DNA from: Desulfofundulus kuznetsovii DSM 6115
GTDB lineage: Bacteria > Bacillota > Desulfotomaculia > Desulfotomaculales > Desulfovirgulaceae
Length of the DNA stretch: 64,000 nucleotides
Direction of reading: 5' to 3'
Assembly (NCBI RefSeq): GCF_000214705.1
Contig: NC_015573.1
Span: forward strand, 2,301,001-2,365,000
Below the pieces are notes generated by a model. The model ran no database searches. It worked only from the letters and a program-made list of their open reading frames with translations, and was not told the origin of the DNA. Shown in pieces: positions 1 to 47,674 of this stretch. The position numbers were made by a program, and so were the translations under genes. How positions within the stretch are numbered: position 1 is the stretch's first letter; each line of letters begins with the position of its first letter.

Positions 1-304
1 TCAGGCACTCCTGGGGGTGGTTGGACATGATCAATTCCAGATTAAGCCGGCGCGCGTGCCGTACCGCCGGTGTATTGGTATGAACCACCATCCCCTCGGC
101 GGCCCGGGTTACACAGGCTGCCACCAGCGCGCGGGCTCCCTCTACCTGCACCAGGCAAAGGCGGCAGGCACCGATGACGTTCAACTCCTCCAGGTAACAG
201 AGCGTGGGGATTTTTACCCCAGCCTGCCTGGCCGCCGCCAGGATGGTGGTACCGGGCGGCACCTGAACCTGCCGCCCATCTATAGTAAGCGTCACCAGGG
301 ACAT
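1..304 (-). CDS. hydA: HydA, catalytic subunit of NAD(P)-linked [FeFe] hydrogenase (N-terminal fragment)
   Basis: Only the first 101 codons lie in the window; the gene continues past base 1. The ATG at 304 follows a GGAGGGAGAG ribosome site. The visible part is a NuoG-type [2Fe-2S] domain: MSLVTLTIDGRQVQVPPGTT, then the Cys pattern C..GACRLC..AACVT, then the start of the His-rich segment (NHPQECL). Proteins starting this way are either NuoG or the large subunit of multimeric [FeFe] hydrogenases. The upstream HydB- and HydC-like genes and the nearby maturation genes favour the hydrogenase. It would carry the H-cluster and exchange electrons with HydB in the cytoplasm. The H-cluster domain itself is not visible. 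Confidence 0.85.
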   Translation of the reverse strand, partial: MSLVTLTIDGRQVQVPPGTTILAAARQAGVKIPTLCYLEELNVIGACRLCLVQVEGARALVAACVTRAAEGMVVHTNTPAVRHARRLNLELIMSNHPQECL

Positions 305-320
305 GTCTCTCCCTCCAGCT

Positions 321-2114
321 TTAAATGGTATAGATAGCACCAAACTTGCACTTTTCCATACACGTGCCGCACCGGAGGCATTTTTCCAGATCTATCCGGT
401 GGGGCTTCTTTTTCTCTCCGGAAACAGCTTTTGCCGGACATACCAGGGCGCAGCGCCCGCAGCCGTTGCATTTTTCTTCGTCTATGGCGTACACCATCAA
501 GGCGCGGCAAACCCCGGCGGGACACTTCTTGTGGTATATATGGGCTTCATACTCGTCGCGGAAATGGCGGATGGTGCTGAGCACGGGATTGGGGGCGGTC
601 TGTCCGAGGCCGCACAGGGCGGAAGACTTGATGCCGTGCCCCAGCTCTTCCAGAAGCTCGATATCCCCATCCCGGCCCTCACCCCGGGTGATCCGCTCCA
701 CAATCTCCAGCATGCGCTTGGTGCCGATGCGGCAGGGAGAACACTTGCCGCAGGACTCGTCCTGGACAAACTCGAGGAAGAACCGGGCCAGGTCCACCAT
801 ACACGTATCCTCATCCATGATAATTAAACCGCCGGAGCCCATGATGGCTCCCAGTTGGGTCAGCGACTCGTAATCCACCGGCACGTCCAGGTAACGGGCC
901 GGGATGCAGCCGCCGGAGGGGCCTCCCGTCTGCGCGGCCTTAAAACGCTTGCCTCCAGGGATGCCGCCGCCAATATCAAAGATAATTTCCCTCAAGGTGG
1001 TACCCATGGGCACCTCAACCAGACCGGTGTTGTTTACTTTACCGGCCAGGGCGAAGACCTTCGTTCCCTTGCTCTTCTCCGTACCGATGGAGGCAAACCA
1101 TTCGGGCCCGTTCAGGATAATGGGCGGGATGTTTGCCCATGTTTCCACGTTGTTGATCACCGTGGGCTTTCCCCAGAGGCCTTCCTGGGCGGGGAAGGGA
1201 GGTCTGGGCCTTGGTTCACCGCGGCGGCCTTCAATGGATGCCAGCAGGGCCGTTTCCTCGCCGCAGACAAAGGCGCCGGCTCCCACCCGGATTTCCACGT
1301 CGAAACTAAAGCCCGTGCCAAAGATGCTTTCTCCCAGCAGGCCGTATTCCCGGGCCTTTTCGATGGCCAGGCTCAATCTTTGCACCGCCAGGGGGTATTC
1401 GGCCCGGACATAAACGTAGCCCTGGTTTGCTCCTATGGCGTAGCCGCAGATGGCCATGGCTTCCAGCACGCTATGGGGGTCCCCTTCGAGAATACTTCTA
1501 TCCATAAAGGCGCCCGGATCGCCCTCGTCGGCGTTGCAGACCACGTACTTGGGCTTCCCCGGCGCTTTGGCTGAAAACTCCCACTTCAAGCCGGTCGGAA
1601 ATCCTGCGCCGCCCCGCCCCCGCAAGCCGGATTTTTTGATGCACTCGATGACTTCTTCCGGGGTCATGCTGGTAAGCACTTTGCCCAAAGCCCGGTACCC
1701 GTCGCGGGCAATGTATTCTTCCACCGATTCAGGGTTGATGATTCCCGTGTTGCGCAGGGCAATGCGGGTCTGCTTTTTAAAGAAATCTATCTGATCGGAG
1801 GTCACCGCCGTCTTGCCGTCTTCGGGCGCCTTGTACAGCAGGCGCTCCACCACCCGCCCCTTTAACAAATGTTCTTCGGCAATTTCCACTGCATCCGCGG
1901 GTTTTAACTGGCGGTAAAACACTCCCTCGGGATAAACCACAATTACCGGGCCCAGGTCGCAGGGACCCATACAGCCGGTTTCAACCACCTTCACTTCGCG
2001 CTTTAAACCCAGCCTGTCTATGCTCTCTTCCAGGGCAGATTTTACTGCCTGGCACCCCGAGGAAATACACCCGGCCCCGGCACAGACCAGAACATGAGCC
2101 CTGTAAAGTTCCAT
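321..2114 (-). CDS. hydB: HydB, NuoF-like flavoprotein subunit of electron-bifurcating [FeFe] hydrogenase
   Basis: This 597-aa protein has the HydB layout. An N-terminal thioredoxin-like [2Fe-2S] domain ([11 protein letters not shown], then CMGPCDLGP) comes first. The FMN/NAD(H)-binding NuoF core follows, with [16 protein letters not shown] near residue 170 and [10 protein letters not shown]. The [4Fe-4S] motif [13 protein letters not shown] lies near 455. A C-terminal two-cluster ferredoxin ends the protein ([12 protein letters not shown] and [11 protein letters not shown]). The extra terminal iron-sulfur domains separate it from plain complex I NuoF. It would take or give electrons between NAD(H), ferredoxin and HydA. 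The gap to hydA is 16 bases, so the two are co-transcribed. Confidence 0.93.
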
Positions 2115-3656: not shown

Positions 3657-4049
3657 TCATTTTTGTGGTTCAGCGACACTATTTTCCTCCTGGTTGATCA
3701 AACCGGCCCTGGTGAGCAGGCAATAAAACCTGCCGGCGGCATGAAAACTATCAAGGGGTGTGGAGAAGAGAGGCACACCTTCCTTCTCGGCCAGGGCAAC
3801 GGTATCCGGCGGGGGAACCCGGCCTCCGGAAATAACAACCCCGCTCAAACCCACCAGGGAAGCCACGGCCACTACATTCCGGTGGCGCTGGATGGTAATC
3901 CACAGGCTCCCCCGGCGGGCACGGGCCAGCACGTCGCTCATCATATCACCACAGTAGGCCCCGTACACCGGGGGCAGGGGCAGGGCATTGTGGTGATGGG
4001 CTGTCAGCTCCAGTTCCGCAATTATTTCCCGCCAGTCAATCAGCTTCAC
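3657..4049 (-). CDS. DRTGG-domain protein (hydrogenase operon)
   Basis: A protein of about 130 aa starting at GTG (MKLIDWREIIAELELT). The segment from YGAYCGDMMSDVLARA through VVISGGRVPPPDTVALAEKEGVPLF resembles DRTGG domains, which bind small ligands such as nucleotides. The start overlaps the end of the HydS-like gene by 14 bases, so the two are probably translationally coupled. A second DRTGG gene lies at 6186-6521 in the same operon. Such proteins accompany sensory hydrogenases in Clostridia and may signal redox or energy state; that role is inference. Confidence 0.75.
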   Translation of the reverse strand: MKLIDWREIIAELELTAHHHNALPLPPVYGAYCGDMMSDVLARARRGSLWITIQRHRNVVAVASLVGLSGVVISGGRVPPPDTVALAEKEGVPLFSTPLDSFHAAGRFYCLLTRAGLINQEENSVAEPQK

Positions 4050-5373
4050 CACCCCCGTCCCTTGCCTGTTTCCAGTCCCTTCCCATGGCCGGCGGCTGTT
4101 TCTGGGCCAGTTCGACCATCTCTTCCGCCAGCTGCTGCAGGCGCTCCCGCAGTTCAAAGATGCAGTAGCTGCGGCGGGCATACCCCTGCACTATATCTTC
4201 AGCCAGGGCGCGGCAGCTGGGGGAACCGCAGGATCCGCAGTCCAGCCCGGGGAGTTCGGCGCAAATCCGCTCCGCCTCTTCCAGCCGGGCCAGGGCCACC
4301 TGGGGGTCTTTGGCCAGGGTTAAGGCCGGGCGGGCCGGAATTGGTGTTTTCAGGCGATAGTAGTCGAAATCCCGGGGAAAGTCCCATGGTTCCCCGGCAG
4401 GGTACAACTTGACCAGATTACCCATGCGCACCCGGGCCACAAAAGGGTTCTGCGGCACCAGGGGGCCGCCGATACAGCCTCCCGTGCAGGCCTGGGCCTC
4501 CAGGTAATCGATGTCCGTAAGGCCTCCCCTTTCTATTTCCTCCAGAACGCTGATCACGCTGTGGATACCGTCAACGGCCAGCAGCGATCCGGCTTTAATG
4601 GCCTCGTTTTCTCCCCCTGCGCGGCCCCAGCCAATGCCCACTCCCGAAGCCCGGGGGGCCACCGGGTATGGTGCGGGCATTTCCAGACGTTTGAGCAGAG
4701 CACCATAAACCACGGCCATGGAGATGGCCCCATCGACACTGGATCTACCTTCGGACGGTTGTTTTACTTCCGTCACTTTGGCGGGACAGGGGGTAATGAA
4801 AAAGGTTCCAATCTCGCCCGGTTCAAGCCCGGTCTTCCGGCAGGCCTGCTCCCGGGCCATACGCCCGGCTATTTCCATGGGAGACTCTATGGGAATGATG
4901 TGTTCCAGCAGGCTGGGAAAGCGCACCTGGATTAACCTGACTACCGCAGGACAGGCTGATGAGATCAACGGCCGGGGCCTGTCAACACATACTTCCATAT
5001 AATGCCTGATGGCCCACGAAACGGCTTCAGCAGCCAGGGCTACTTCAAAAACATCATGAAAGCCCAGGGCTAGCAGGGCACTTAATACCTGGGAGGGGGT
5101 AACTTCGGGTTTAAACTGACCGTAAAAGGAAGGAGCAGGGAGGGCAACGGTATACTTAAAATCTTTTAGTTTTTCCAGGCAATCGGTGATGGCCAGCTTG
5201 GCCTGGTTGGGGCAGATGCGAATACACTCACCGCAGTCAATACAGCGCTCCTCGATAATGCGGGCTCTACCCTTGCGAACCCGGATGGCTTCGGTAGGGC
5301 AGTGCTTGATGCAGTTGGTGCACCCTTTGCATTTTTCTTCGTCGAGGCGCACTGAATGGAAATATTGCTGCAT
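4036..5373 (-). CDS. hydS: Sensory-type [FeFe] hydrogenase (HydS-like)
   Basis: This 445-aa protein begins with two [4Fe-4S] motifs (CKGCTNCIKHC, CIDCGECIRIC), followed by an H-cluster domain. The three H-cluster loops are altered. SSACPA (138-143) replaces TSCCP, so the proton-relay cysteine is alanine while the cluster-ligand cysteine stays. TPCPAK (194-199) keeps its cysteine. EAQACTGGCIGG (292-303) keeps both cysteines but lacks the usual methionine. A C-terminal Fe-S domain follows (LDCGSCGSPSC). Thermotoga HydS, a proposed hydrogen sensor, shows the same loss of the relay cysteine. It sits upstream of hydC with DRTGG and ATPase partners, which fits sensing rather than bulk catalysis. 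Confidence 0.82.
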   Translation of the reverse strand: MQQYFHSVRLDEEKCKGCTNCIKHCPTEAIRVRKGRARIIEERCIDCGECIRICPNQAKLAITDCLEKLKDFKYTVALPAPSFYGQFKPEVTPSQVLSALLALGFHDVFEVALAAEAVSWAIRHYMEVCVDRPRPLISSACPAVVRLIQVRFPSLLEHIIPIESPMEIAGRMAREQACRKTGLEPGEIGTFFITPCPAKVTEVKQPSEGRSSVDGAISMAVVYGALLKRLEMPAPYPVAPRASGVGIGWGRAGGENEAIKAGSLLAVDGIHSVISVLEEIERGGLTDIDYLEAQACTGGCIGGPLVPQNPFVARVRMGNLVKLYPAGEPWDFPRDFDYYRLKTPIPARPALTLAKDPQVALARLEEAERICAELPGLDCGSCGSPSCRALAEDIVQGYARRSYCIFELRERLQQLAEEMVELAQKQPPAMGRDWKQARDGGGEAD

Positions 5374-5395
5374 TTTTAATCACCACTTCTAGATA

Positions 5396-5735
5396 TTGTC
5401 CCATACCCCGGCAGCGGTCGTCTCCCGTCGTTCCGTTCAGCTCTTAGCTAGCTACTGTCGCATAACTATCGGGGCGCGGTCGTCCCCCCGTCGCTCCGTG
5501 CTGCGGGCCGGACGAAACATCGGCTTGCCTCGGAGCGAACCTGGCAGCGCTGCATATGCGCCGGAAGTCTACTTTCCTCATGAATAGTTATAGCCTAAGC
5601 AGCTCAATCATTATATCGATACTGCTACCAGCGCGATTCGCGCTGCCGGTTCGCTAACCTCGGCTGCGCCGTGTTTCGTATCCGGCCCTCCGCAATGTCG
5701 CTCCTTATGGGACGACCGCCGCCCATCTAGTTTCT
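5396..5735. repeat. Imperfect long inverted-repeat element between hydS and the anti-sigma-like gene
   Basis: This gene-free stretch inside the operon folds on itself. The arm at about 5468-5570 (CGCGGTCGTCC, GGGCCGGA, CGAAACA, GAGCGAACCTGGCAGCG) reappears in reverse complement at about 5635-5730 (GGCGGTCGTCC, GGGCCGGATACGAAACA, TAGCGAACCGGCAGCG). A third, shorter copy of the GCGGTCGTC..CCGTCG..TCCG block is at 5411-5435. The centre (5571-5630) is AT-richer. It could be a MITE-like or REP-like element, or a structured intercistronic RNA. No transposase or clear target duplication is visible. Confidence 0.7.
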
Positions 5736-5754
5736 GGTTTTGTGACAGTATCAA

Positions 5755-6168
5755 CTAATTGTTGAAAACTGCCGCCCACAGTTTGGTGCCTTTATTTACT
5801 TCCGACTGGATATCCAGTTCATCGGCGCTTTTTTTGATGTTGGGCAGGCCCATGCCTGCTCCGAAACCCATCTCCCGGATGTGGGGCGGGGCGGTGGAAT
5901 ATCCTTCCTGCATGGCCAGGGGAATATCGGGAATACCCGGGCCTTCATCTTCGGCGATGATTTCCACCTTATGGGGAGTGATATTGGCTGTCAGGGTGCC
6001 GTGATAGGCATGGATGACGATGTTCATCTCCGCCTCGTAGGCAATGATGATGGTCTTGCGGATGGTCGCGGGATCCATACCGGCCAGCTGTAAGGCTTTT
6101 TTGATCTTTGTTGCGGCCTGGCCTGCCCGGCTGAAATCCATCCCCTTCACCTGAAACTTCAGTTGCAA
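5755..6168 (-). CDS. Anti-sigma-factor-like ATP-binding protein (RsbW/RsbT type)
   Basis: A small 137-aa stand-alone HATPase_c protein. It shows the N-box YEAEMNIVIHAYHG, the G1 box DEGPGIPD and the G2 box GFGAGMGLPNIKKSAD. This matches the serine/threonine kinase anti-sigma regulator family rather than histidine kinases. Translation probably starts at TTG (6168) behind GGGGGTAAGGTG. It lies 17 bases after a DRTGG gene and precedes the HydS-like gene, so it may form a partner-switching or kinase module with the hydrogen sensor. That link is inferred from gene order. Confidence 0.8.
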   Translation of the reverse strand: MQLKFQVKGMDFSRAGQAATKIKKALQLAGMDPATIRKTIIIAYEAEMNIVIHAYHGTLTANITPHKVEIIAEDEGPGIPDIPLAMQEGYSTAPPHIREMGFGAGMGLPNIKKSADELDIQSEVNKGTKLWAAVFNN

Positions 6169-6185
6169 GGCACCTTACCCCCGTT

Positions 6186-6521
6186 TCAGGAACTCCGCAG
6201 TCCCGCCTGGTAGAGGATGCCGCAACTTTCAAACAGGAACAGATCGGTCGCCAGCAAGGGAAGACCCTTTTCCCGCGCCAGCTTGATTACGTCTTCACCG
6301 GGCTTCTTACCCCGCACAAAAACGATGGCCCGTGCCTCCACCATTTCCGCAAGACGGATGATCTGCACATTGGTAAGCCCGGTGAGCAGAAGGCAGCCCG
6401 GCCTGGCAAAACACAAAGAGTCACTGATCAGGTCGCAGCCAAAGCCGGAAGTGACCTCTGTATCAAGCCGGTCGGCACCGCAGAGCACATCGGCATTGAG
6501 CATCTTTTTAATGACATGCAA
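6186..6521 (-). CDS. DRTGG-domain protein, first gene of the hydrogenase operon
   Basis: A 111-aa protein with a DRTGG-like fold: DVLCGADRLDTEVTSGFG at the start, then ARPGCLLLTGLTNVQIIRLAE and AIVFVRGKKPGEDVIKLARE. It resembles the second DRTGG protein at 3657-4049. Both end in a VPLF/LPLLATDLFLFE-like segment. It is the promoter-proximal gene of the nine-gene hydrogenase run seen here. Ligand and role are not known; family members are thought to bind nucleotides. Confidence 0.75.
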   Translation of the reverse strand: MHVIKKMLNADVLCGADRLDTEVTSGFGCDLISDSLCFARPGCLLLTGLTNVQIIRLAEMVEARAIVFVRGKKPGEDVIKLAREKGLPLLATDLFLFESCGILYQAGLRSS

Positions 6522-6869: not shown

Positions 6870-8282
6870 CTAAAAGTACAGGTCCCGCTGTCCTTTTTCG
6901 ATCATTTCCAAACGGGCTACGGTTTCTTCACGCACGGCGGGATTTTCGATCAACTCCAGGTGTTTCTGGATGGTCTCCTCACCCACCCGCCTGGTTTCCG
7001 GAGAAGCATAGTCCAGGAGAAATTCCTTGAAGGTGAGAATGGCATTGGGCTGGCAGACGTTCTGGATCTGGCCTGTTTTAGCCAGGGACATAAACCGGTC
7101 GCCGGTGCGCCCCTTGCGGTAACAGGCCGTACAGAAGCTGGGTATGTACCCGGACAAGCAAACACTGCGCAGCACTTCGTCGGGGCTCCGGTGATCCTCC
7201 ACCTGGAACTGGGCAGTATCTCCCTCTTCCCGGCGCTCGCCCATCAGAGCCCTGTGGTAGCCTCCCACGCCCGTACACGAACCGGCGCTGATCTGGGAAA
7301 TGCCCACCGAGATCAATTCATCCCGGAACTCCGGCCGTTCCCGGGTGGAGAGAATCATGCCGGTGTAAGGTACGGCCAGGCGCAAAATAGCGATGATTTT
7401 TTTGAAGTCCCGGTCGGAAACCAGGTAAGGGAAGTTCTCCAGATTGATATTCAAGGCCGGACGCAGCCGGGGAACCGAGATGGTGTGGGGACCTACGCCA
7501 AAGCGCTCTTCCAGATGCAAAGCATGGAAAAGCAGGCCCAGCACTTCAAACTTATAGTCATATAAACCAAATAAAACGCCCAGGCCCACGTCATCAATAC
7601 CGCCTTCCATAGCCCGGTCCATGGCCGTGGTATGCCAGTCGTAATCCCGCTTGGGGCCGGAGGGATGCATGGCCCGGTAGGTATCACGGTGGTAAGTTTC
7701 CTGGAACAAGATATAGGTACCAATGCCAGCTTTTTTCAAAAGCCGGTATTCATCCACCGTGGTGGCGGCGATATTCACGTTCACCCGCCGGATGCTGCCG
7801 TTCCTGTCCTTAACGGAGTAGATGGTCTCGATGGCTTCCAGCACGTAATCAATGGGGCAGTTGACGGGGTCCTCACCCGTTTCCAGGGCCAGCCGCTTGT
7901 GTCCCATAGCTTCCAGGGCAATCACTTCATCCCGTATTTCCTCCATGGTCAGGCGGCGCCGCACCAGTTCTTTGTTGTCCCGGCGGTAACCGCAGTACCG
8001 GCAGTTGTTGATGCAGTAGTTGCTGATATAAAGGGGGGCAAAAAGAACCAGCCTTTTGCCGTAGATCCTTTCTTTAACCCGGTAGGCAGTAGCAAACATC
8101 AGGTCCAGGGTATCCTGGTCCTCCACATGCAGCAACACGGCCACTTCAAAGGGAGAGAGCCCCCTGGCCTCTTCCGCCCGGGCGATGATCTCCCGGGCCG
8201 TGGCAGGAGTTGCCCGGCGGCCTTCTTCCAGCAGGCCGTTAATCTGCTCTTCGTTGATAAAGGTAGCCGGTTCACACTTCAC
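6870..8282 (-). CDS. hydG: HydG, radical SAM tyrosine lyase for CO/CN ligands of the H-cluster
   Basis: HydG cleaves tyrosine and delivers Fe-CO-CN units for the H-cluster. The 470-aa protein has the radical SAM cysteines C90, C94 and C97 (ISNYCINNCRYCGYR). It also has the HydG-specific C-terminal motif: FCTACYRKG, then after 22 residues the third cysteine of QNVCQPN, which binds the auxiliary cluster. The start is the GTG at 8282, which overlaps the hydE stop (GTGA) and follows GGAGGG. A longer open frame up to 8891 runs inside hydE and is not real. Last gene of the maturation operon. Confidence 0.96.
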   Translation of the reverse strand: MKCEPATFINEEQINGLLEEGRRATPATAREIIARAEEARGLSPFEVAVLLHVEDQDTLDLMFATAYRVKERIYGKRLVLFAPLYISNYCINNCRYCGYRRDNKELVRRRLTMEEIRDEVIALEAMGHKRLALETGEDPVNCPIDYVLEAIETIYSVKDRNGSIRRVNVNIAATTVDEYRLLKKAGIGTYILFQETYHRDTYRAMHPSGPKRDYDWHTTAMDRAMEGGIDDVGLGVLFGLYDYKFEVLGLLFHALHLEERFGVGPHTISVPRLRPALNINLENFPYLVSDRDFKKIIAILRLAVPYTGMILSTRERPEFRDELISVGISQISAGSCTGVGGYHRALMGERREEGDTAQFQVEDHRSPDEVLRSVCLSGYIPSFCTACYRKGRTGDRFMSLAKTGQIQNVCQPNAILTFKEFLLDYASPETRRVGEETIQKHLELIENPAVREETVARLEMIEKGQRDLYF

Positions 8283-9343
8283 TGTTCCATCCCTCCTTGG
8301 ATTTTCGGGGAATGCCCCGGTCCGCTCCCCACCCGCCGGTTTAAGGAAAAGATCAGGTTCTTCAACGAAACCAGTGTCGTTTCCATTTCCTCGTGCAGTC
8401 CCGCCTTTCCGGGATAGATCTGGTAATAGCAGCGGTAAGGCGGCGGGGTTGTATCGGGCATAATCACATTGGCACCAAAGCAAAGCCCCATACGCCGCCC
8501 CTGGGGATGGATGGTACCCAGGGCCGTGGTGGCGGGCAAATGGGCCCGGGGAAGGAGCAACCTGGCTATGGCCAGCACCTTCAGGGTGAGTTCCAGCTCT
8601 CCGGGAGGCTCTTTGGCCAGGGGTGTTTGCGGATGGGGTATGAAGGGGCCAATGCCCGCCATCTCCACGTCCAGCTCGCGCATGAGCAGGATGTCGGCGG
8701 CCAGGGTTTTCAGAGTCTGGCCCGGCAGGCCGACGATGTTCCCCGACCCCACCTGGTAGCCCAGCTCCCGCAACCACTTCAGGCGCAGCAGCCGATCCTG
8801 CAAGGTGGTACCCGGCCGCAGCCGGGCAAAAAGGGCGGCGTCGGCGGTTTCGTGCTTCAAGAGGTAGCGGTCGGCCCCCGCTTCCCGCCACAGGCGGTAA
8901 TCCTCAAAGGAACGCTCGCCGACGGAAAGGGTTACCGCTCCCACCCCCACCTCTTCCTTTAAACGCCTGATTATATCCGCCAGAACCGGGGCCGTGTAAT
9001 GGGGATCCTCCCCCGATTGCAGAACAATGGTCGGAAGACCCAGCCCGGCGGCCTTGCGGGCAGCGGCCAGGATTTCTCCGGGAGTTAAGCGGTAACGCCG
9101 CAAATTCCGGTTGTCCCGGCGCAGGCCGCAGTAAAGGCAGTTCTGGCGGCAGTAGTTGGAAAACTCAATGATGCCACGTAAGTGCACCTCATCTCCCAGG
9201 GATGCCGCCCTCACCCCGTCGGCCGCCCGGCCAAGGGCATCAACCTCCTCGCCCCTGGCCTGGAGGAGAATAAGAATTTCCCGGTGCTCAAGGCTATGGG
9301 CTTCTCTGGCTTTGGCCAGCGCTTCCATGAACTCGTGCCGCAT
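8279..9343 (-). CDS. hydE: HydE, radical SAM maturase of [FeFe] hydrogenase
   Basis: A 354-aa BioB-like radical SAM enzyme. The cluster-binding motif CRQNCLYCGLRRDN sits at residues 65-78, followed by TIVLQSGEDPHY and VGSGNIVGLPGQT, both typical of HydE. It acts on the HydG product during assembly of the diiron subcluster. It ends at the hydG start with a four-base-type overlap and begins four bases after the hydF stop, so hydF-hydE-hydG is a tight unit. Length is normal for the family. Confidence 0.95.
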   Translation of the reverse strand: MRHEFMEALAKAREAHSLEHREILILLQARGEEVDALGRAADGVRAASLGDEVHLRGIIEFSNYCRQNCLYCGLRRDNRNLRRYRLTPGEILAAARKAAGLGLPTIVLQSGEDPHYTAPVLADIIRRLKEEVGVGAVTLSVGERSFEDYRLWREAGADRYLLKHETADAALFARLRPGTTLQDRLLRLKWLRELGYQVGSGNIVGLPGQTLKTLAADILLMRELDVEMAGIGPFIPHPQTPLAKEPPGELELTLKVLAIARLLLPRAHLPATTALGTIHPQGRRMGLCFGANVIMPDTTPPPYRCYYQIYPGKAGLHEEMETTLVSLKNLIFSLNRRVGSGPGHSPKIQGGMEQ

Positions 9344-9347
9344 AGGA

Positions 9348-10631
9348 TCACCTGTGTTCGCGATACCTGCTCAACAGGGCCAGCTCATCTTCAAATTCCA
9401 CCTGTTCCTCTTCCAGAACGGCTAAAGCCTGGGGGAAGGGGGATAATGCCCGCTTTAAAACCCCGTGAATGTGAGCCATGAGCACGCCGTAATTGACAAT
9501 GGGCACCCCGGCTTCCTGGGCCTGCATGATCCGGTAGAGCATTTCCCGGCGGTTGAGCATACAGGCCCCGCAGTGCACGATCAGCTTGTAATCCCGGAGA
9601 TTTTCAGGCAGGGTGCTCCCGCCGCTGGCCACGTCAAATACCAGTTCCCCTCCCACCGCCTGCCGGAGCCAGCGGGGTATCTTCACCCGGCCGATATCAT
9701 CCTGGATGGGGTGATGGGTACAGGCCTCGGCAATGAGGATTTTGTCCCCGGGCTTTAAATCCTTGACGGCCCTGGCCCCGGCCACCAGGGTGGGCAGGTC
9801 TCCTTTATAGCGGGCAAACAGGATGGAGAAGGAGGTAAAAAGCACATCCGGCGGTGTGTCGGCCACGGCCTTGAGGTAGGCCGAGGCATCGGTAACCACC
9901 AGCTTCGGCTTCACGGCCATGCTGGCCAGGGCGTGCTTCAGCTCCCGCTCCTTGACCATCACTGCCACGGCGTCGTTTTCCAGTACGTCCCGGATTACCT
10001 GCTGCTGCGGGAGGATGAGCCTCCCCCTAGGAGCGGCCTTGTCAATGGGGATGACCAGTACGACCAGGTCCCCCGGTTCAATCAGGTCCCCCACAATGGT
10101 GGGAAGGGCCCAGTCCCTGGGGGCAGCCTTTACGACGGCCATTTTCAGCTCATTGATGCCCCGGCGGGTCAAAGCGCTGACCGCAACAAAGGGCACATCC
10201 AGTTCCTGCTGCCACGGGCGGTTAACCGCTTCGGGGTAGAGGTCGATTTTGTTGATTACTCCCAGTACCGGCACCTTTTGTTCCCGGGCCCGGTTCACCA
10301 CATCCCGTTCATATTCCCCAATTCCCCGCCCGGGATCCACCACCAAAAGGGCCAGGTCGGTTTTGTTGAGCACCTCCAGGGTTTTCTGCACCCGCAGGGC
10401 GCCCAGTTCCCCGGTATCGTCCAGCCCCGCCGTGTCGATAAGCATCACCGGCCCCAGGGGGAGGAGCTCCATGGCCTTGGCCACGGGATCGGTGGTTGTG
10501 CCGGGGATGCCGGAAACGATGGCCACTTCCTGGTTAGTTATGGCGTTAATTAAGCTGGATTTGCCTGCATTGCGCCGGCCGAAAAGGGCAATGTGCAGCC
10601 GCTGCCCCCGGGGGGTAGCATTCAGGCTCAT
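9348..10631 (-). CDS. hydF: HydF, GTPase scaffold for H-cluster assembly
   Basis: HydF binds GTP and a [4Fe-4S] cluster and carries the diiron precursor to apo-hydrogenase. The 427-aa protein has an N-terminal GTPase domain (P-loop GRRNAGKSS at about 18-26, SGIPGTTTDP, DTAGLDD, NKID). The C-terminal cluster-binding motif shows as EACTHHP and HCGACMLN. It overlaps the end of aspA by four bases (ATGA), a sign of coupling. Length and domain order are normal. Confidence 0.95.
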   Translation of the reverse strand: MSLNATPRGQRLHIALFGRRNAGKSSLINAITNQEVAIVSGIPGTTTDPVAKAMELLPLGPVMLIDTAGLDDTGELGALRVQKTLEVLNKTDLALLVVDPGRGIGEYERDVVNRAREQKVPVLGVINKIDLYPEAVNRPWQQELDVPFVAVSALTRRGINELKMAVVKAAPRDWALPTIVGDLIEPGDLVVLVIPIDKAAPRGRLILPQQQVIRDVLENDAVAVMVKERELKHALASMAVKPKLVVTDASAYLKAVADTPPDVLFTSFSILFARYKGDLPTLVAGARAVKDLKPGDKILIAEACTHHPIQDDIGRVKIPRWLRQAVGGELVFDVASGGSTLPENLRDYKLIVHCGACMLNRREMLYRIMQAQEAGVPIVNYGVLMAHIHGVLKRALSPFPQALAVLEEEQVEFEDELALLSRYREHR

Positions 10632-12067
10632 GGCTTATCACCTTCCCTGGTTAAAAAGCGCTTTAAATGTCGCACGCCGGCCACACCCGGTGTGGTCAGC
10701 TCTTCCGGTTTAAGGATTGCTTCGATTTCCTCCCTGGTGAACAACCCCTCCTCCACCAGCAGTTCCGTTACCGGCCGACCGCTCCGGGCTGCCCGCAGAA
10801 CCATGGCGGTAGCCTTCTCGTAGCCCAGGTAAGGGGCAAAGGCGGTGATCACCCCCTGGCTGGCTTCCAGCAACTGCCGGCAGCGGGCCTCATCAGCTTG
10901 AATGCCCCGGACGCATTTTTCCGCCAGCAACCTGGCCGCCCCGGTCATCATTTCCAGGGAGTGGAGCAAATTGTGGGCAATCAGGGGAAGGAAGGCATTT
11001 AACTCCAGCTGCCCGGAAGCCGCGGCCATGTTAATGGCCACATCGCCGGCCATCACCTGGTAGGCCACCTGGGTGACCATTTCAGGTATCACGGGGTTGA
11101 CCTTGCCGGGCATGATCGATGAACCGGCCTGCACCTTAGGCAGCACGATTTCCCCCAGCCCCGCCCGGGGGCCGGAAGATAACAGGCGCAGATCCCCGGC
11201 TATCTTGGCCAGGTTGACAGCGGCGGTCTTTACAAAGCCGGAGACCTCCGCGAAAATGTCGGCATTTTGCGTGGCTTCCACGGTGTTTTCCGCCCGGGCC
11301 AGGCCAAAACCGGTCAGCTCCCGTAGGATCTCCACCACCCGGAAGATATAACGCCGGCTGGCGTTGAGTCCCGTCCCCACGGCTGTCCCACCCAGGTTAA
11401 CCTGCCGCAGGCGTTCCTCTGCCTTGTACAAACGCCACCAGTCCCGGGCTACCGCCTCAGCGTAGGCGCCGAACTCCTGGCCCAGGGTAACGGGCACCGC
11501 ATCCTGCAACTGGGTGCGGCCGATCTTGAGTATGGAGGCAAACTCCTTCTCCTTAGCCTGCAGGGCCCCCTGCAGAACGGCCATGGCCTGGCTCAACTCC
11601 CGCACCAGCTTGATGGCCGCCACCCGCAGGGCCGTAGGGTAAACGTCATTGGTGGACTGGCCCAGGTTAACGTGATCCAGCGGATGGACCAGTGAGTAAT
11701 CTCCCTTCGTCCCCCCCAGGATTTCAATGGCCCGGTTGGCAATGACCTCGTTGACATTCATGTTGGTGGAAGTGCCCGCCCCGCCCTGAAAGGCGTCGAC
11801 GACAATTTGATCATGCCACTGGCCCCGGGCCAGCTCTTCTGCCGCCTGCACTATGGCCCCGGCAATGCGGGGTTCCAGCAAGCCAATCTCCATATTGGCC
11901 AGGGCCGCGGCTTTTTTGACCAGGGCCAGGGCCCAGATGAGCTCACGATGAACGGGAATCCCGGATACGGCAAAATTTTCTTTGGCCCTTAAAGTATGGA
12001 TGCCGTAGTAGGCCTCCCGGGGGATTTCCCTTTCACCCAGCAGATCTTTTTCTACCCGGTAGGACAC
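10628..12067 (-). CDS. aspA: Aspartate ammonia-lyase in the hydrogenase maturation operon
   Basis: A 479-aa fumarase/aspartase superfamily enzyme. Visible signatures are GAGTSTNMNVNEVIANRA, HPLDHVNLGQSTNDVYPTA and the catalytic loop motif GSSIMPGKVNPVIPEM. Aspartase forms fumarate and ammonia from aspartate. It is packed between the TM1266-like gene and hydF. aspA-like genes recur beside hydE and hydF in several anaerobes, which suggests a link to maturation, perhaps ammonia for the bridging amine of the H-cluster; this is a hypothesis. Start is GTG at 12067 with a weak ribosome site. Confidence 0.9.
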   Translation of the reverse strand: MSYRVEKDLLGEREIPREAYYGIHTLRAKENFAVSGIPVHRELIWALALVKKAAALANMEIGLLEPRIAGAIVQAAEELARGQWHDQIVVDAFQGGAGTSTNMNVNEVIANRAIEILGGTKGDYSLVHPLDHVNLGQSTNDVYPTALRVAAIKLVRELSQAMAVLQGALQAKEKEFASILKIGRTQLQDAVPVTLGQEFGAYAEAVARDWWRLYKAEERLRQVNLGGTAVGTGLNASRRYIFRVVEILRELTGFGLARAENTVEATQNADIFAEVSGFVKTAAVNLAKIAGDLRLLSSGPRAGLGEIVLPKVQAGSSIMPGKVNPVIPEMVTQVAYQVMAGDVAINMAAASGQLELNAFLPLIAHNLLHSLEMMTGAARLLAEKCVRGIQADEARCRQLLEASQGVITAFAPYLGYEKATAMVLRAARSGRPVTELLVEEGLFTREEIEAILKPEELTTPGVAGVRHLKRFLTREGDKP

Positions 12068-12095: not shown

Positions 12096-12347
12096 TTACT
12101 TGCGGGACACCAGGGCGCTTTTTACCTGCACACCCCTGATACTGCCCAGTTTTCCCGTCATAGCCCCAATTTCGTCGGTGGTGCCGTCAACAATCAGGGC
12201 GATGACCGAAAGGTTCTTCTCCCGGTAAGGTATGCCCATGCGCCCCACAATAATCTCCGCATATTCCCCCAGGATGCTGTTGATCTTTCCCGCGGCATAC
12301 TGGCGGTCTTCGACCAGGATGCCGACCACCCCAATGCGCCTTTCCAC
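12096..12347 (-). CDS. TM1266-family iron-only hydrogenase system regulator (ACT-like)
   Basis: An 83-aa ACT/CopG-like protein of the TM1266 family: RRIGVVGILVEDRQYAAGKINSIL, then a segment with GRMGIPYREKNLSVIALIVDG, then GKLGSIRGVQVKSALV. The family is named for its linkage to [FeFe] hydrogenase maturation genes; the ligand is not settled. The start is GTG at 12347, five bases after GGAGG. The TTG at 12362 lies upstream of that ribosome site. It is the first gene of the maturation operon, behind a structured leader. Confidence 0.88.
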   Translation of the reverse strand: MERRIGVVGILVEDRQYAAGKINSILGEYAEIIVGRMGIPYREKNLSVIALIVDGTTDEIGAMTGKLGSIRGVQVKSALVSRK

Positions 12348-12603
12348 ACTTTCACCTCCCAACGCCGCAGCTTAAACGCACCCCGCAATTCGTCCACAAA
12401 TGAGCGTACCCATGCCCTTTTTAGAAGATGCTATTAATGTAAACAAAAAAGCCTGCCTTTCTCCCACGAAAAGCAGGCTGCTGCCCGGTTTCTCCGCTGC
12501 CCCCTTGAGTACAGGAAAAACCCTTTTCGCAGGGAAGGCTGCTATGCCGTTGTCATACCCCTCCGGCTCAGGGCCACCTGGCCCCCATCCGTCAGGACAC
12601 TTT
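12348..12603 (-). ncRNA. Structured 5' leader of the hyd maturation operon (candidate riboswitch/attenuator)
   Basis: About 255 bases separate the predicted transcription start from the first gene. The proximal half (12600-12490 on the minus strand) is GC-rich with many complementary blocks, such as GGGGGCC/GGCCC, GCCGG and GCAGCCTTCCCTGCG. It ends in a rho-independent terminator well before the coding sequence. The GCAGCCT of the early part repeats the 5' arm of the terminator, so it could compete for the 3' arm. That is the layout of a transcription attenuator. I do not recognise a known riboswitch class. Confidence 0.6.
12443..12479 (-). terminator. Attenuator-like terminator inside the hyd maturation leader
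   Basis: On the minus strand AGCCTGC and GCAGGCT form a stem, extended by TTTTC/GAGAA, followed by TTTTTTG. It lies about 95 bases upstream of the first gene and downstream of the promoter, so read-through must be controlled or partial. Confidence 0.85.
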
Positions 12604-12609
12604 TGAAAA

Positions 12610-12638
12610 ATTATACTGTAAAATCAGTAATTTGACAA
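12610..12638 (-). promoter_or_regulatory. Sigma-A-type promoter of the hyd maturation operon
   Basis: On the minus strand TTGTCA (12638-12633), a 17-base spacer and a perfect TATAAT (12615-12610). Transcription would start near 12603 and read into the structured leader. Confidence 0.8.
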
Positions 12639-12707
12639 TAGTTTTTGGTGACTCGCGGGTACGCTGCTGGCGCAGATGAAAGCAGGCCAGACAGGACAAC
12701 CAGTGTT

Positions 12708-12953
12708 AGTCTAACTTCATACGTGTTCGGTTTACCAAATAGTTCATTTAAAACCATTTAACACCTGGGAATTAGCTTATAACCAGGTAAAGTATAACTT
12801 TTCCTTGGAGCCAGCAACTGCATGAAGTTAAGTCACCGGTAGGACAATGGTCATATAACCACAAATAGGGATTTTAATTACCAGGGATAAAGTACCACCT
12901 TTGGATATCAATGGTATATTGCGGGCTTAACCGAACACGTATGAGTCTAACTT
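12708..12953. mobile_element. 226-bp MITE with terminal inverted repeats and 10-bp target duplication
   Basis: CATACGTGTTCGGTT at 12718-12732 is repeated as its exact reverse complement at 12929-12943. Outside these 15-bp ends lies the same 10-mer AGTCTAACTT at 12708-12717 and 12944-12953. The 226-bp element has no coding capacity, so it fits a non-autonomous miniature transposable element mobilised in trans. It sits just upstream of the hyd maturation promoter. The related full-length transposon is not in the window. Confidence 0.9.
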
Positions 12954-15421: not shown

Positions 15422-17020
15422 TTATTTATTAGCCCTGCAGACATGGGGCAGCGAATTGGACCAGGGGAGCAACTGATCCAGGGCGTTACTGTCTTTAGGG
15501 TCCAGGTTGGGAAGTTTTTCAAAAAGATAACTGAGGTACTGGAAAGGATTCAACCCATTCTCCTTTGCCGTTTCTATGATGCTGTAAGTAATAGCGCTGG
15601 CCCGGGCACCCCGCGGAGTATTGGCAAACAACCAGTTCTTGCGGCCAATGACAAAGGGTTTGATCGACCGCTCACTCCGGTTGTTATCCAGTTCCAGGCG
15701 TCCATCCTGCAAAAAGGCAATGAGTTTATCCCACTGGCTCAGGCAATAGTTAACTGCCTGACCAAAGGAACTTTTGGGCAGTACCTGTGTTTTCTGGGTT
15801 TTAAGCCATGCCCGAAAAGCATCCAGCACGGGGCGGCTGCGCACCTGGCGGGCCTGATAACGCTCCTGGGGCGTTGCATCTTTCAAGTCGCGCTCAATGG
15901 CAAAAAGTTGGTTACAAAATTCCAGCCCCACCTGGGCGGCCACTGCTTTATTGCGTTTATCTTCCGGCAGGGCCTTTAACGCTTCATCAAACTTGCGCCG
16001 GGCATGGGCCCAGCAGCCCACCAGGGTGACATCCGGCAGTTCGTTGTAGCCGGCGTAACCGTCAACGTGCAAGTAGCCTTTAAAACCTGCCAGGAACCGG
16101 CGGGGGTGCTTGCTGGCCCGGGTGGTCTGGTAGTCGTAGAGAATAATGGGAGGACCGTCCCGCCCGGTGCGGTAGAGCCAGAGGTACGATTGGGTTTCAG
16201 CAGCCCGGCCCGGCTCGCGGAGGACCTGCAGGGTTGTCTCATCGGCATGCAGGATATCCCGCTCAAGCAGGTGTTCATGCAGGCGATCGTAGATCAGGGC
16301 CAACCAGTTGTTCGCCCCGTACAGCACCCAGTTGGCAAGCGTCTGCCGGGACAGCTCCACCCCCAGGTGGGCAAACTGCTGCTCCTGGCGGTACAGCGGC
16401 AGACCTTCCCCGTATTTCTGGTTCATGATGTAAGCCATAAGCGAGGGGGAAACCATACTTCCGGGAAATACAGGAGCCGGCATGGGAGCGGTAACAATGG
16501 GGGTGGTTAGCTCGTTGCGCTCGCAATGGCGGCAGGAATAAACGTAACGCACATGCTTGACCACTTTTACCTGGGCCGGGATGATCTGCAGTTCCTGTCG
16601 TACTTCGGTGCTCATTTCATGTAAAGGACCACCGCAGCACGAACAGACCCGCTCTTCTTCCGGCAGGCGGTACTCAACCGTTTCCACCGGCAGGTTATCG
16701 AGCACCATCTCCCGGCGGCCACGCTGTTTGCGGCGCTGGTAGGTGATGGTTTCGACAGCCGGTTCGGGTGAAGCCGGCTGGGCTTCCACTTCCGCCTCAT
16801 TAAAAAGCGAAAGCTGCTGGTAGCCAGAAGCGGTCCGTTCGCTGGAAACACCGAATTGCCGGTGTTTGCTCAAGCGAAGCTGCTCCATAAACCAATTCAG
16901 TTTAGCGGTCAGCTCGGCATTCTGTTGTTCCAACCATCTGCACTGCTCTTCCAGCTGTAGACAGCGGCTTTGCAGCTCTTCTATATTCATGGCAGCGATA
17001 GATTGCGAAGTAGTGTTCAT
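15422..17020 (-). CDS. tnpC: IS66 transposase TnpC
   Basis: The IS66 DDE transposase of about 532 aa. It has an N-terminal leucine-rich coiled coil ([20 protein letters not shown]), a zinc-finger segment (RVCSCCGG) and the catalytic region with [21 protein letters not shown] and [21 protein letters not shown] short IS66 C-terminal domain ends it. I choose the ATG at 17020 ([12 protein letters not shown]). A GTG at 17068 would add 16 residues, but neither start has a good ribosome site. A strong hairpin lies just upstream of the ATG. The protein looks intact. Confidence 0.93.
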
Positions 17021-17032
17021 GAATAAAAGATT

Positions 17033-17055
17033 CGACGAAACCCGTCGAATCCCTC
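17033..17055 (-). promoter_or_regulatory. Hairpin in front of IS66 tnpC
   Basis: GATTCGACG and CGTCGAATC form a perfect nine-base-pair stem with a five-base loop. On the minus strand it is followed directly by TTTTATTC and the ATG. It may attenuate transcription into tnpC or restrict its translation. Confidence 0.6.
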
Positions 17056-17099
17056 TAGAATCAACCACAAAGTGAAAATATTTCTTTCTGCTGCTTTAT

Positions 17100-17456
17100 T
17101 TATATTACAGTGCGTGCTTTTACCTCGGGATGAGCTTTAGGCTGTTCTATCGATAGGCCGTCGAGCAGCCAGCGCAGTTCCCGGCGGCTAATGGCAATAG
17201 TTGAAGAAGTGCTTCTTTCCGGCCAGGGGAATTTACCTTTCTCCAGCCGGCGGTAATAGAGCCAAAACCCATTGTGGTCCCAGTGGAGAATTTTAATTTT
17301 GTCCCGCTGCCGGTTACAGAAGACGAAAAGGCAGGAAGAGAAGGGGTCCAGCTCAAACCCTTCCTTGACCAGCACGGCCAGGCCGTCAATGGACTTGCGC
17401 AAATCGGTGGCACCGCAGGCGAGGTAAACCCGGTTGATACTAAATTCATTTAGCAT
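17100..17456 (-). CDS. tnpB: IS66 accessory protein TnpB
   Basis: The IS66 Orf2 protein, 118 aa, with the family signature from VYLACGATDLRKSIDGLAVLV through CNRQRDKIKILHWDHNGFWL to RRLEKGKFPWP. It is needed for transposition of IS66 elements; its biochemical role is unclear. It overlaps the end of tnpA by seven bases. It looks complete. Confidence 0.95.
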   Translation of the reverse strand: MLNEFSINRVYLACGATDLRKSIDGLAVLVKEGFELDPFSSCLFVFCNRQRDKIKILHWDHNGFWLYYRRLEKGKFPWPERSTSSTIAISRRELRWLLDGLSIEQPKAHPEVKARTVI

Positions 17457-17776
17457 AACGCTACCAGCACCTTAACTACCTGAGAAAGCAAGGCTGGATC
17501 AAAGCCGGGTTTTACCTCGATGTTGGCCGGTCCTATTTTGACCAGTAAAGTATGGTCCTCTTCTATAAATGACTGGTTGCTTATTTCCACCGGCAGCCAC
17601 CGGTTTGATTTTCCTGGGGTAACTACGTTCCGGTCTTTAAACTTTCGCAGCCAGTACCATAACTGCCTGGGGCTGATGCCTTCATGGGCGGCGCACCATT
17701 CTCTGACGCTTTGCCCACTCATCTTGTATTCGGCTATTCGGGTTTCCCATAGCGCTTCCCGTTCGGCTTTGGTCAT
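17450..17776 (-). CDS. tnpA: IS66 accessory protein TnpA
   Basis: The IS66 Orf1 protein, 108 aa, with a helix-turn-helix-like N-terminus (WETRIAEYKMSGQSVREWCAAHEG, then QLWYWLRKFK). It is the first gene of the element, starting at ATG 17776 behind GAGGAGG. It probably binds the element ends. It looks complete. Confidence 0.93.
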   Translation of the reverse strand: MTKAEREALWETRIAEYKMSGQSVREWCAAHEGISPRQLWYWLRKFKDRNVVTPGKSNRWLPVEISNQSFIEEDHTLLVKIGPANIEVKPGFDPALLSQVVKVLVALC

Positions 17777-18312: not shown

Positions 18313-20227
18313 GAGCCTGTTGCAAAACTCCTTACCACCCACAAAAATCTAACGGAAAAACCATAAGATTTTCCATTTAGAAGGAATTGACCAGCAATTC
18401 GTCGAATATCTAAGGTATCATTAGATAGAGGGTGGTAATTTGAAATGCTGGGCCGCCAAAAACAACAATTGAAATTTACGAACATCGACGTCCTGCAGGC
18501 CTGGGAGCAAAAGCCCCTCGTTCCCGAAGACAGCTTTTACTATGGCCTCTCTCAGGCTGACGATATCTTCCGGGACGAACTATTTGCCGACTGCTATGCC
18601 TCCTGCGGACGTCCGTCCATCCCACCCAGCCGCCTGGTCAAGGTGCTCCTGCTGCAGTTTCACGACCGGGTATCAGACCGGGAAGCGGAACAACGTGCTT
18701 TATACGACCTGCGCTGGAAAGTAGCACTGAACCTTTCCCTGGGGGAAGCAGGATTTGACCATACCGACCTGTGCCGGTTTCGGGCCAGGTTATTGTTGAA
18801 CAAGAAAGAACGCGCCGCTTTTGAAGAAATCCTAAAGGCGGCGGAAGCTAAAGGGTTGCTTCCCGCTAAATGTGTTCAACAGATCATGGACTCCACCTAC
18901 GTCCTGGGTGCCGGAGCGGTCCAGGACACCTACACTTTAATCCGGCTGGCCATAAGAAAACTTTTGAGCGCCCTGAAAAAACGCCCTGATTTCCCGGAAT
19001 TGAGGCTGAATCTTAATTATCAGGGCAAGGGCAAACCCAAAATCAACTGGGAAGACCCCGCCGAACGGGAAAGGCTGTTAAACCAGCTTTACCAGGATGC
19101 CTTAACGATTATTAGCGCAACGGAGGGGATGGAATTATCCTGTAAAGAAAGGGAATTAAAAGACCTCCTATTGACGGTAGCCACCCAGGATATAGAACAA
19201 AAGGAAGACGGCTCGGTAACCATAAAACGGGGGGTGGCCAAGGACCGGGTCATTTCCACCACCGATCCCGAAATGCGCCACGGAAGAAAGTCTCACTCCC
19301 GGCTCTTTGACGGCTACAAGAGCCATACCGCCATGGATAAAGAAAGTGAATTTATCATCGCCGTTACCGTAACCCCCGGGAACACCCACGATTCAGAGGC
19401 AACTTTTGCGCTTGTCGACCAGCAACCCGAAGAGCGCCGGCCAGAGGAAGCGATCTTTGACACTGCTTATGGCACGGGCAGGGTCAGGGAAGAAATGGCC
19501 ACCCTCCAGATTAAAGTGATCAGCCCTGTCCCCGAAGGAATCGGGAAAGATGGCTGTTTCCCCAAATCGGCTTTTGAAATTGACCTGGACAGACAGATCT
19601 GCCGCTGCCCAGCCGGTCAAATCGCACCTGAAAAAATCTATGACAAAAAAACGGGCCGGCTCAAAGTATTTCTCTTTTCCCCGGAACAGTGCCAAAACTG
19701 TCCTTTATTAAACCAGTGTACCAGAAACAAAAAGGGTAGACGGACAGTCACGGTAAATGCCTACGAACGCTACCTCCAGGAGGGTCGGGCCTTTCAAAAA
19801 ACCGAGGAGTTTGCCGGTAAATATCCCGAACGCTGCAAGATCGAGAGAAAGCAGGCGGAAATGGTGATGCATGGCCTGCGAAAAGCTCGTTATCTTGGTC
19901 TGGCCAAAGTAACCCTGCAGGCGCTTTTAATTGCCACTGTGGTTAACTTTAAACGTTACTGGAAGCTGCTTAACCAAAAAGAAAATTCTGTGGTTCCCCA
20001 TACCGGTATGGTAATAAATTGCACCACACTAGTCCTGGCAAGTGGATAGGGGGGGGTAGTTTACCCAAATGCAGGTAAAATAAGGAAAATAAACGTAAAA
20101 CAAATGGTTATTAGCTGATTTAAGCATGTTTTAAGCCTGTTTCTATGACAGATTACCATTAATTGTAATCCAAAATTTTTGCAAGTGGCTTTTCAGCAGA
20201 AAAAAGAGACTATTTTGCAACAGGCTC
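18313..20227 (+). mobile_element. Complete IS1182-like insertion sequence
   Basis: A 1915-bp element with perfect 15-bp ends, GAGCCTGTTGCAAAA at 18313-18327 and its reverse complement at 20213-20227. The 4-bp duplication CTAG flanks it (18309-18312 and 20228-20231). One transposase gene fills it. Orientation is opposite to the genes it interrupts. Confidence 0.93.
18445..20049 (+). CDS. IS1182-family DDE transposase
   Basis: A 534-aa transposase with an N-terminal DUF772-type domain (RPSIPPSRLVKVLLLQFHDRVSDREAEQRALYDLRWK). A DDE nuclease domain follows, with the acidic residues in MDSTYVLGAGA, FDTAYGTGRVREE and ERKQAEMVMHGLRKARYLGL. A cysteine cluster lies between (CRCPAGQ, CQNCPLLNQC). The frame is full length. 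The start is ATG behind a GGTGG site. Confidence 0.93.
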   Translation: MLGRQKQQLKFTNIDVLQAWEQKPLVPEDSFYYGLSQADDIFRDELFADCYASCGRPSIPPSRLVKVLLLQFHDRVSDREAEQRALYDLRWKVALNLSLGEAGFDHTDLCRFRARLLLNKKERAAFEEILKAAEAKGLLPAKCVQQIMDSTYVLGAGAVQDTYTLIRLAIRKLLSALKKRPDFPELRLNLNYQGKGKPKINWEDPAERERLLNQLYQDALTIISATEGMELSCKERELKDLLLTVATQDIEQKEDGSVTIKRGVAKDRVISTTDPEMRHGRKSHSRLFDGYKSHTAMDKESEFIIAVTVTPGNTHDSEATFALVDQQPEERRPEEAIFDTAYGTGRVREEMATLQIKVISPVPEGIGKDGCFPKSAFEIDLDRQICRCPAGQIAPEKIYDKKTGRLKVFLFSPEQCQNCPLLNQCTRNKKGRRTVTVNAYERYLQEGRAFQKTEEFAGKYPERCKIERKQAEMVMHGLRKARYLGLAKVTLQALLIATVVNFKRYWKLLNQKENSVVPHTGMVINCTTLVLASG

Positions 20228-47356: not shown

Positions 47357-47395
47357 GAAAAATAAAAGCTCCTCGCACCTTTAGGGACGAGAAGC
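47357..47395 (-). terminator. First T-box terminator (promoter-proximal)
   Basis: GCTTCTCG and CGAGGAGC form the stem with one G-U pair, followed by TTTTATTTTT. It lies between the two T-box sequences. Confidence 0.8.
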
Positions 47396-47674
47396 ATACT
47401 GCTTTCCGCGTTACCACCCTACTTGACCGCAAAAACGGCCCACCTCAACACAGGGTACGGGAATGTGTCTTTCCGATACCCCCTTCCCGGTAACGTAGGA
47501 AGACTACGGCACGGCCTACTTGCCCGCGGTAACGGGTTTCAGCCTGCATCTCCGGGGAGAACTTCAACCGGTCATGTTCTGGAGGCGCTTCCAGTCGCCG
47601 GCGCCTCCTCCCTGGAGAACTGTTTCCGGCCTACTTTTCCCCTTCATCGACTTTAGGGATATAATTTATGCCTT

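Follow-up and report, generated by a model that had tools for sequence, protein, structure and literature searches.

The DNA in front of the hyd genes of Desulfofundulus kuznetsovii DSM 6115 bears on the way in which anaerobes adjust the costly HydE/F/G pathway and on the role of TM1266. Neither Rfam 15 nor the literature searched contains an RNA regulator of H-cluster biosynthesis. The original prediction for this locus, made from the sequence of a 64-kb window (the whole 64,000-nucleotide stretch analyzed here), placed a new regulatory RNA before the H-cluster maturation operon and described a promoter, a structured leader, a terminator and a TM1266-like gene. Scans, profile matches and comparison find all of these parts on the minus strand. 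The structured stretch proved real; its tandem duplication and wide phyletic range had been missed. The proposal of a new regulatory RNA is supported, because no Rfam 15 family matches and the structure is conserved. The element is rated here as a new candidate class of cis-regulatory RNA, itself a known kind of regulator.

The leader and its operon

The leader lies on the minus strand and comprises, in order, a promoter, a folded RNA of about 110 nt, an intrinsic terminator and a TM1266-family gene. The promoter (12610–12638, minus strand) has a −35 box TTGTCA at 12638–12633, a 17-nt spacer and a −10 box TATAAT at 12615–12610, amounting to 11 of 12 matches in a pattern scan; transcription would start near 12603. 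The terminator (12445–12479, minus strand) consists of a 12-bp stem and a 6-nt loop followed by a U-run, and its hairpin part (12479–12450) has a calculated energy of −19.7 kcal/mol. About 95 nt past it, the TM1266-family gene (PF21699/TIGR03959; 12096–12347, minus strand) begins with a GTG at 12347, preceded by the ribosome site GGGAGG at 12360–12355. Its product matches TIGR03959 at 118 bits and has one 83-aa domain only, although it is named a putative regulator; a homologous structure, 2nzc, has been solved.

The genes that follow are also on the minus strand: aspA, encoding aspartate ammonia-lyase (10628–12067), hydF (9348–10631; HydF, 573 bits), hydE (8279–9343; HydE, 342 bits) and hydG (6870–8270; HydG, 679 bits). 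The start of hydG is approximate, with the frame open from 8891 and homology from residue 209. Downstream of hydG lie genes for a DRTGG protein, a HATPase and a sensory-type Fe-hydrogenase-domain protein (4036–6521, minus strand), then a NuoF-like subunit (321–2114, minus strand) and the start of hydA (1–343, minus strand).

Pattern scans and folding energies alone are unconvincing. The promoter scan is by itself weak evidence (one match seen, 2.0 expected in shuffles), as is the terminator scan (two seen, 1.8 expected in shuffles). The folding energy of the whole leader is modestly low, with a z of −2.55 that 3 of 200 shuffles equal; without the terminator, z is −1.01. It is the comparative evidence that convinces: five congeners (G061–G065) have the identical promoter, and conservation of the RNA core, together with covariation, extends across phyla.

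Mobile elements are found nearby. An insertion of about 228 bp at 12717–12944 has perfect 16-bp terminal inverted repeats (TCATACGTGTTCGGTT), is flanked by duplicated AGTTAGAC and is missing from the same site in a relative (L007); it resembles a MITE that has inserted some 80 bases upstream of the promoter. Two transposon-like gene sets near the hyd operon, judged by eye from translations, are an IS66-type trio (15422–17776, minus strand) and a single transposase-like gene (18445–20049, plus strand).

A conserved RNA element in tandem copies

Comparative analysis defines an element of about 46 nt with the form CC-UG(A/C)-P1b-A(A)-GG...CC-UGA-P1b'-AA-GG. The TM1266 upstream regions of relatives share one common core, CCUG(A/C)G..AGG..CCUGA...CAAGGGG, usually with a terminator next. 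The hairpin is built from an outer helix P1 (C-C-U/G-G-G), an internal loop UG(A/C)/AA and a short helix P1b of variable sequence; beyond P1b, a second internal loop carries UGA on the opposite strand, and an inner helix P2 (A/G-G-G/C-C-U) follows. One loop motif is thus present twice in inverted orientation, and the element can be read as two UGA/AA internal loops placed head to head across P1b.

This nested hairpin (P1, loop, P1b, loop, P2) was fitted to sets of 20, 57 and 34 sequences. All three show high pairing and many compensatory changes, and the structure expected by the original prediction is in this way seen in relatives. Among the 57 diverse sequences, 84.4% of cells are paired and covariation scores 0.368, compared with 0.204 for shuffles (reached by 0 of 500) and at most 0.155 for slid-partner controls. 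Pair 16-44 of this set occurs as AU, GC, CG, UA, GU and UG, with 25 two-sided changes, and pair U12-G48 is invariant. The wider 34-sequence set, which includes AT-rich clostridial forms, scores 0.407 against 0.206; GC, CG, AU, UA, GU and UG all occur at its P1b positions, and U12-G48 becomes UG in 30 sequences, UA in 2 and CG in 2. As in riboswitches, a conserved and covarying RNA domain occupies the 5′ leader.

Such covariation bears on the possibility that the leader is an ordinary attenuator or a set of chance hairpins, with a strong terminator beside a functionless fold, or with attenuation by a leader peptide. The unexceptional energy of the leader without its terminator would suit this explanation. 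It is already disfavored by the covariation, however, and the internal-loop sequence is conserved across phyla; a leader peptide is further opposed by the lack of any reading frame conserved across leaders, the frames in the window's leader being tiny. We regard it as very improbable.

The window holds two copies of the element. Copy 1 (12553–12604, minus strand; CCUGA-CGG..GCCG-GAGGGG) is a full element with an extended inner hairpin. Copy 2 (12496–12541, minus strand; CCCUGCGAAAAGGGUUUUUCCUGUACUCAAGGGG) is the copy predicted to couple to the terminator. The widest covariance model, R3, scores them at 22.4 bits (E 2.7e-4) and 29.0 bits (E 2.9e-6), respectively, with E values for the 64-kb window, where it gives no further match below E 0.7. 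Copy 2 scores 43.5 bits with model R1 and is its sole match in the 3,601,386-base chromosome. The tandem arrangement recurs in L032, L033 and L034 and, more distantly, in L157; it is not universal, and many members carry one copy.

A rearranged version (CGUUCUGAAAUACAUGAGGGUUCGUCCCAAAUGACAAGGCG) precedes TM1266 in Clostridium leaders of the beijerinckii type (L086, L087, L090, L091, L093, L101, L106). Its second UGA/AA loop is reversed in orientation and Rfam gives no match; these leaders are probably a sister variant class.

Predicted exclusive folds and a proposed switch

Calculation suggests that copy 2 and the terminator belong to alternative folds. When the leader is folded without constraints, the minimum-energy structure uses the 5′ strand of copy 2 (12523–12539, minus strand; GCCUUCCCUGCGAAAAG) as the 5′ arm of a predicted antiterminator. 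The 3′ arm (12455–12473, minus strand; CUUUUCGUGGGAGAAAGGC) lies inside the terminator stem and is indicated by the same fold and by a test of own versus swapped duplexes. Pairing of 12539–12523 with 12473–12455 is calculated to exclude terminator and aptamer alike. In a 110-nt transcript ending at 12494, both copies form in the minimum-energy fold. Constrained folding of the full leader gives −71.6 kcal/mol with the antiterminator, −69.6 for the best fold with the terminator and −66.7 for aptamer plus terminator. The gap between these calculated folds, 2–5 kcal/mol, does not exceed the error of the folding model and is small enough for a ligand contributing a few kcal/mol to tip the balance.

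The swap test covered 63 leaders and, being confounded by related sequences, deserves modest weight only: the 5′ strand prefers its own downstream region (−19.5 versus −17.4; 11 of 63 in the top 5%, P 3e-4), and the result for the 3′ strand is less clear (7 of 63). The mechanism may not be uniform, given that a clear terminator is lacking in several members.

On balance, we slightly favor the leader being a tandem transcription-termination OFF riboswitch whose small-molecule ligand is tied to H-cluster assembly and also imported. With ligand present, copy 2 would be held together, the terminator would form and TM1266-aspA-hydFEG would be off. With ligand absent, the 5′ strand of copy 2 would pair with the 5′ arm of the terminator as an antiterminator, allowing readthrough. 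This OFF polarity, in which ligand leads to aptamer and aptamer to terminator, is modeled from the calculated folds. We infer that the ligand would be bound free of protein; its class, and any cooperation of the two copies, are proposed on the same footing.

Distribution, target genes and the likely ligand

Covariance searches find the element in Bacillota, Clostridia and Syntrophales, plus single genomes of other phyla. It lies nearly always before TM1266, aspA, hydE, hydF or hydG; NMT1-type ABC importers or an ECF S-component recur as further targets. Across 113 genomes of the order, R1 finds the element 52 times at E ≤ 1e-3, and in 47 of these cases TM1266 follows directly. The other five lie after hydA (G107), before hydF (G108), before NMT1-type ABC importers (G083, G021) and before a NuoE-like gene (G105). 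Across the phylum, the element also precedes aspA (L162), hydE (L173, L176, L189, L202) and hydG (L167, L181, L190), besides TM1266. In L227 it stands before a NuoE/NuoF-type operon. The element is also carried by Syntrophus, by one Bacteroidota genome (L081) and by MAGs of Lentisphaerae (L057), Auribacterota (L061) and Fusobacteria (L084). One metabolic theme unites the target genes of unrelated organisms, as is expected of a riboswitch.

As a check outside the training sequences, R3 was used to search 41 genomes of Clostridia and 41 of Syntrophales. The four best non-training matches in Clostridia (L259, L268, L260, L269; E ≤ 0.007) are all before TM1266 or hydG, and the weaker L264 and L265 are before TM1266. 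Outside the training genome, Syntrophales yield nine matches at E ≤ 0.02, seven of which (L271–L276, L279) precede TM1266-hydG; L277 and L278 were attributed to chance. No convincing match was found in 59 further Bacteroidota genomes; only the already known one is real among 60, which shows the chance level.

Several matches were set aside. L146, a NuoE-like match without the inner helix, was kept out of the convincing set. Weak matches in or beside coding genes were judged to be chance, examples being L149–L153, L155, L156, L158–L161, L183, L185, L191, L194, L198, L201, L206, L217–L219, L223–L226, L261–L263, L266, L267, L270, L277, L278 and L280–L286. At L200 (about 1516–1562), a good core match (E 0.003) with a terminator-like hairpin next to it lies before two crcB/FluC fluoride-channel genes; it may be real or chance and was left out of the counts. 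In some genomes (G074–G077, L084, L068), the element lies between TM1266 and the next gene, besides or instead of the leader site, with second matches just downstream of TM1266 in G074–G077; this placement resembles an internal operon switch.

Importers recur among the targets outside the hyd genes. ABC importer operons stand behind the element in L143, L144, L147, L148 and L168, and TM1266 plus an ABC importer in L056 and L265. An ECF S-component is directly behind it in L207, and TM1266 with an ECF S-component in L204, L220, L221, L222 and L258; Pfam classes these importer targets as NMT1 and ECF_trnsprt. AspA is the ammonia source for the bridging ligand (PMC11736057), and the regulated set is therefore the H-cluster pathway plus the uptake of something. 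The ligand would probably be a small molecule that H-cluster assembly makes or uses up and that cells can also import, given that NMT1-type ABC importers and an ECF S-component stand behind the same RNA. The original prediction had named iron, redox, SAM or hydrogen; the importer targets point instead to an imported small organic compound. None of the ligand candidates considered (lipoate, tyrosine or p-cresol, purines, cobamide lower ligands, iron) has decisive support. Across the ECF S-component family (PF12822; L228–L257), TM1266 adjoins 13 of 30 loci and cobT is near in three (L241, L246, L249); the substrate of this family may be the key to the ligand.

The same targets weigh on sensing of metal or redox state (Fe2+, Fe-S or Fe-CO-CN species) in place of an organic compound. 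The target pathway consumes iron, and metals can bind to small internal loops that contain G.A and wobble pairs. However, the recurrent non-hydrogenase targets, NMT1-type ABC importers and the ECF_trnsprt S-component, are not known iron importers, and the Rfam metal riboswitch models give no match, making this an improbable explanation.

The position of the RNA raises a further alternative, in which the element is bound by protein, most obviously TM1266, itself small, single-domain and devoid of a DNA-binding domain. By stabilizing the element, TM1266 would autoregulate its operon and control the importers in trans. The RNA is immediately before TM1266 in 47 of 52 matches, and a loop motif repeated in inverted orientation would be a suitable site for a symmetric protein. 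Of the 39 phylum-set genomes with any match, 36 have TM1266 (two of the matches in the three genomes without it sit in coding genes), among them every genome whose match was judged convincing, which leaves room for TM1266 as the binding partner. Occurrence of the RNA only with TM1266 is nevertheless weak support, because TM1266 is common in these clades. What may speak against binding by TM1266 is that its conserved basic residues (R4, R36, R42, K44, K66, K76) and net charge are unchanged in 27 loci without detected RNA, and that TM1266 occurs without detected RNA in Thermotogota and Caldanaerobacter-type loci. We consider this explanation rather unlikely.

Returning to a small-molecule switch, a possible but tentative extension is that the element is a new riboswitch class for an unrecognized compound needed for or made in H-cluster assembly, which some anaerobes import via NMT1-type ABC or ECF transporters. 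If true, the RNA would reveal a nutritional input to [FeFe]-hydrogenase maturation so far unrecognized; the importer targets suggest that a compound not listed by anyone so far is taken up for the H-cluster pathway. The element is small, widespread and suited to standard in-line probing, making its ligand or partner directly testable.

Comparison with known RNA classes

Scanned against Rfam 15 at gathering and permissive thresholds, the leader gives no match, the only match up to E 10 being a chance one at E 7.4; none of the families, including NiCo, Moco, glycine, fluoride, THF, SAM and T-box, matches it. No Rfam 15 family matches the leaders of 25 related loci either, in agreement with the novelty proposed in the original prediction. 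A T-box identity was rejected for the leader: the window's only T-box, at 47380–47656 on the minus strand (98.7 bits), is also its sole Rfam match. ANTAR targets have two hairpins with six-base loops in which A1 and G4 are fixed; the apical loops of the element vary in length and sequence, and it was not assigned to this type. The literature search found no paper describing the element; some key candidate-RNA lists lay outside the search, so an earlier unnamed prediction is possible, and a 2021 list of human-microbiome RNAs (PMC8040213) might contain unannotated gut members.

Protein-bound leaders, such as ribosomal-protein leaders and ANTAR targets, have possible autoregulation by the first gene, here TM1266, in common with the element, whereas its conserved bases are in internal loops and not in a hexaloop. 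The NMT1-motif xanthine riboswitch (PMC7373994) can likewise precede NMT1-type ABC importers, but the element mainly targets hydrogenase assembly genes, and its loci have no Rfam match. Tandem members of the Wco riboswitch have been reported before a ferredoxin hydrogenase gene (PMC9481103). Moco and Wco riboswitches likewise serve complex-cofactor enzymes of anaerobes; in contrast, the element is much smaller, has another core and is without an Rfam match. With tandem riboswitches such as glycine and NAD+-I (reviewed in PMC9481103), the leader shares a pair of successive copies of which the second alone adjoins the terminator, although here tandem copies are not universal and the glycine riboswitch model gives no match. 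Transcription-terminating OFF riboswitches (such as TPP, FMN and SAM-I) resemble the leader in layout, with a promoter, a conserved aptamer-like domain and an antiterminator and terminator that exclude each other, for the leader by prediction, followed by the biosynthesis or importer genes of one pathway; in sequence and structure, the element is unlike any Rfam 15 family.
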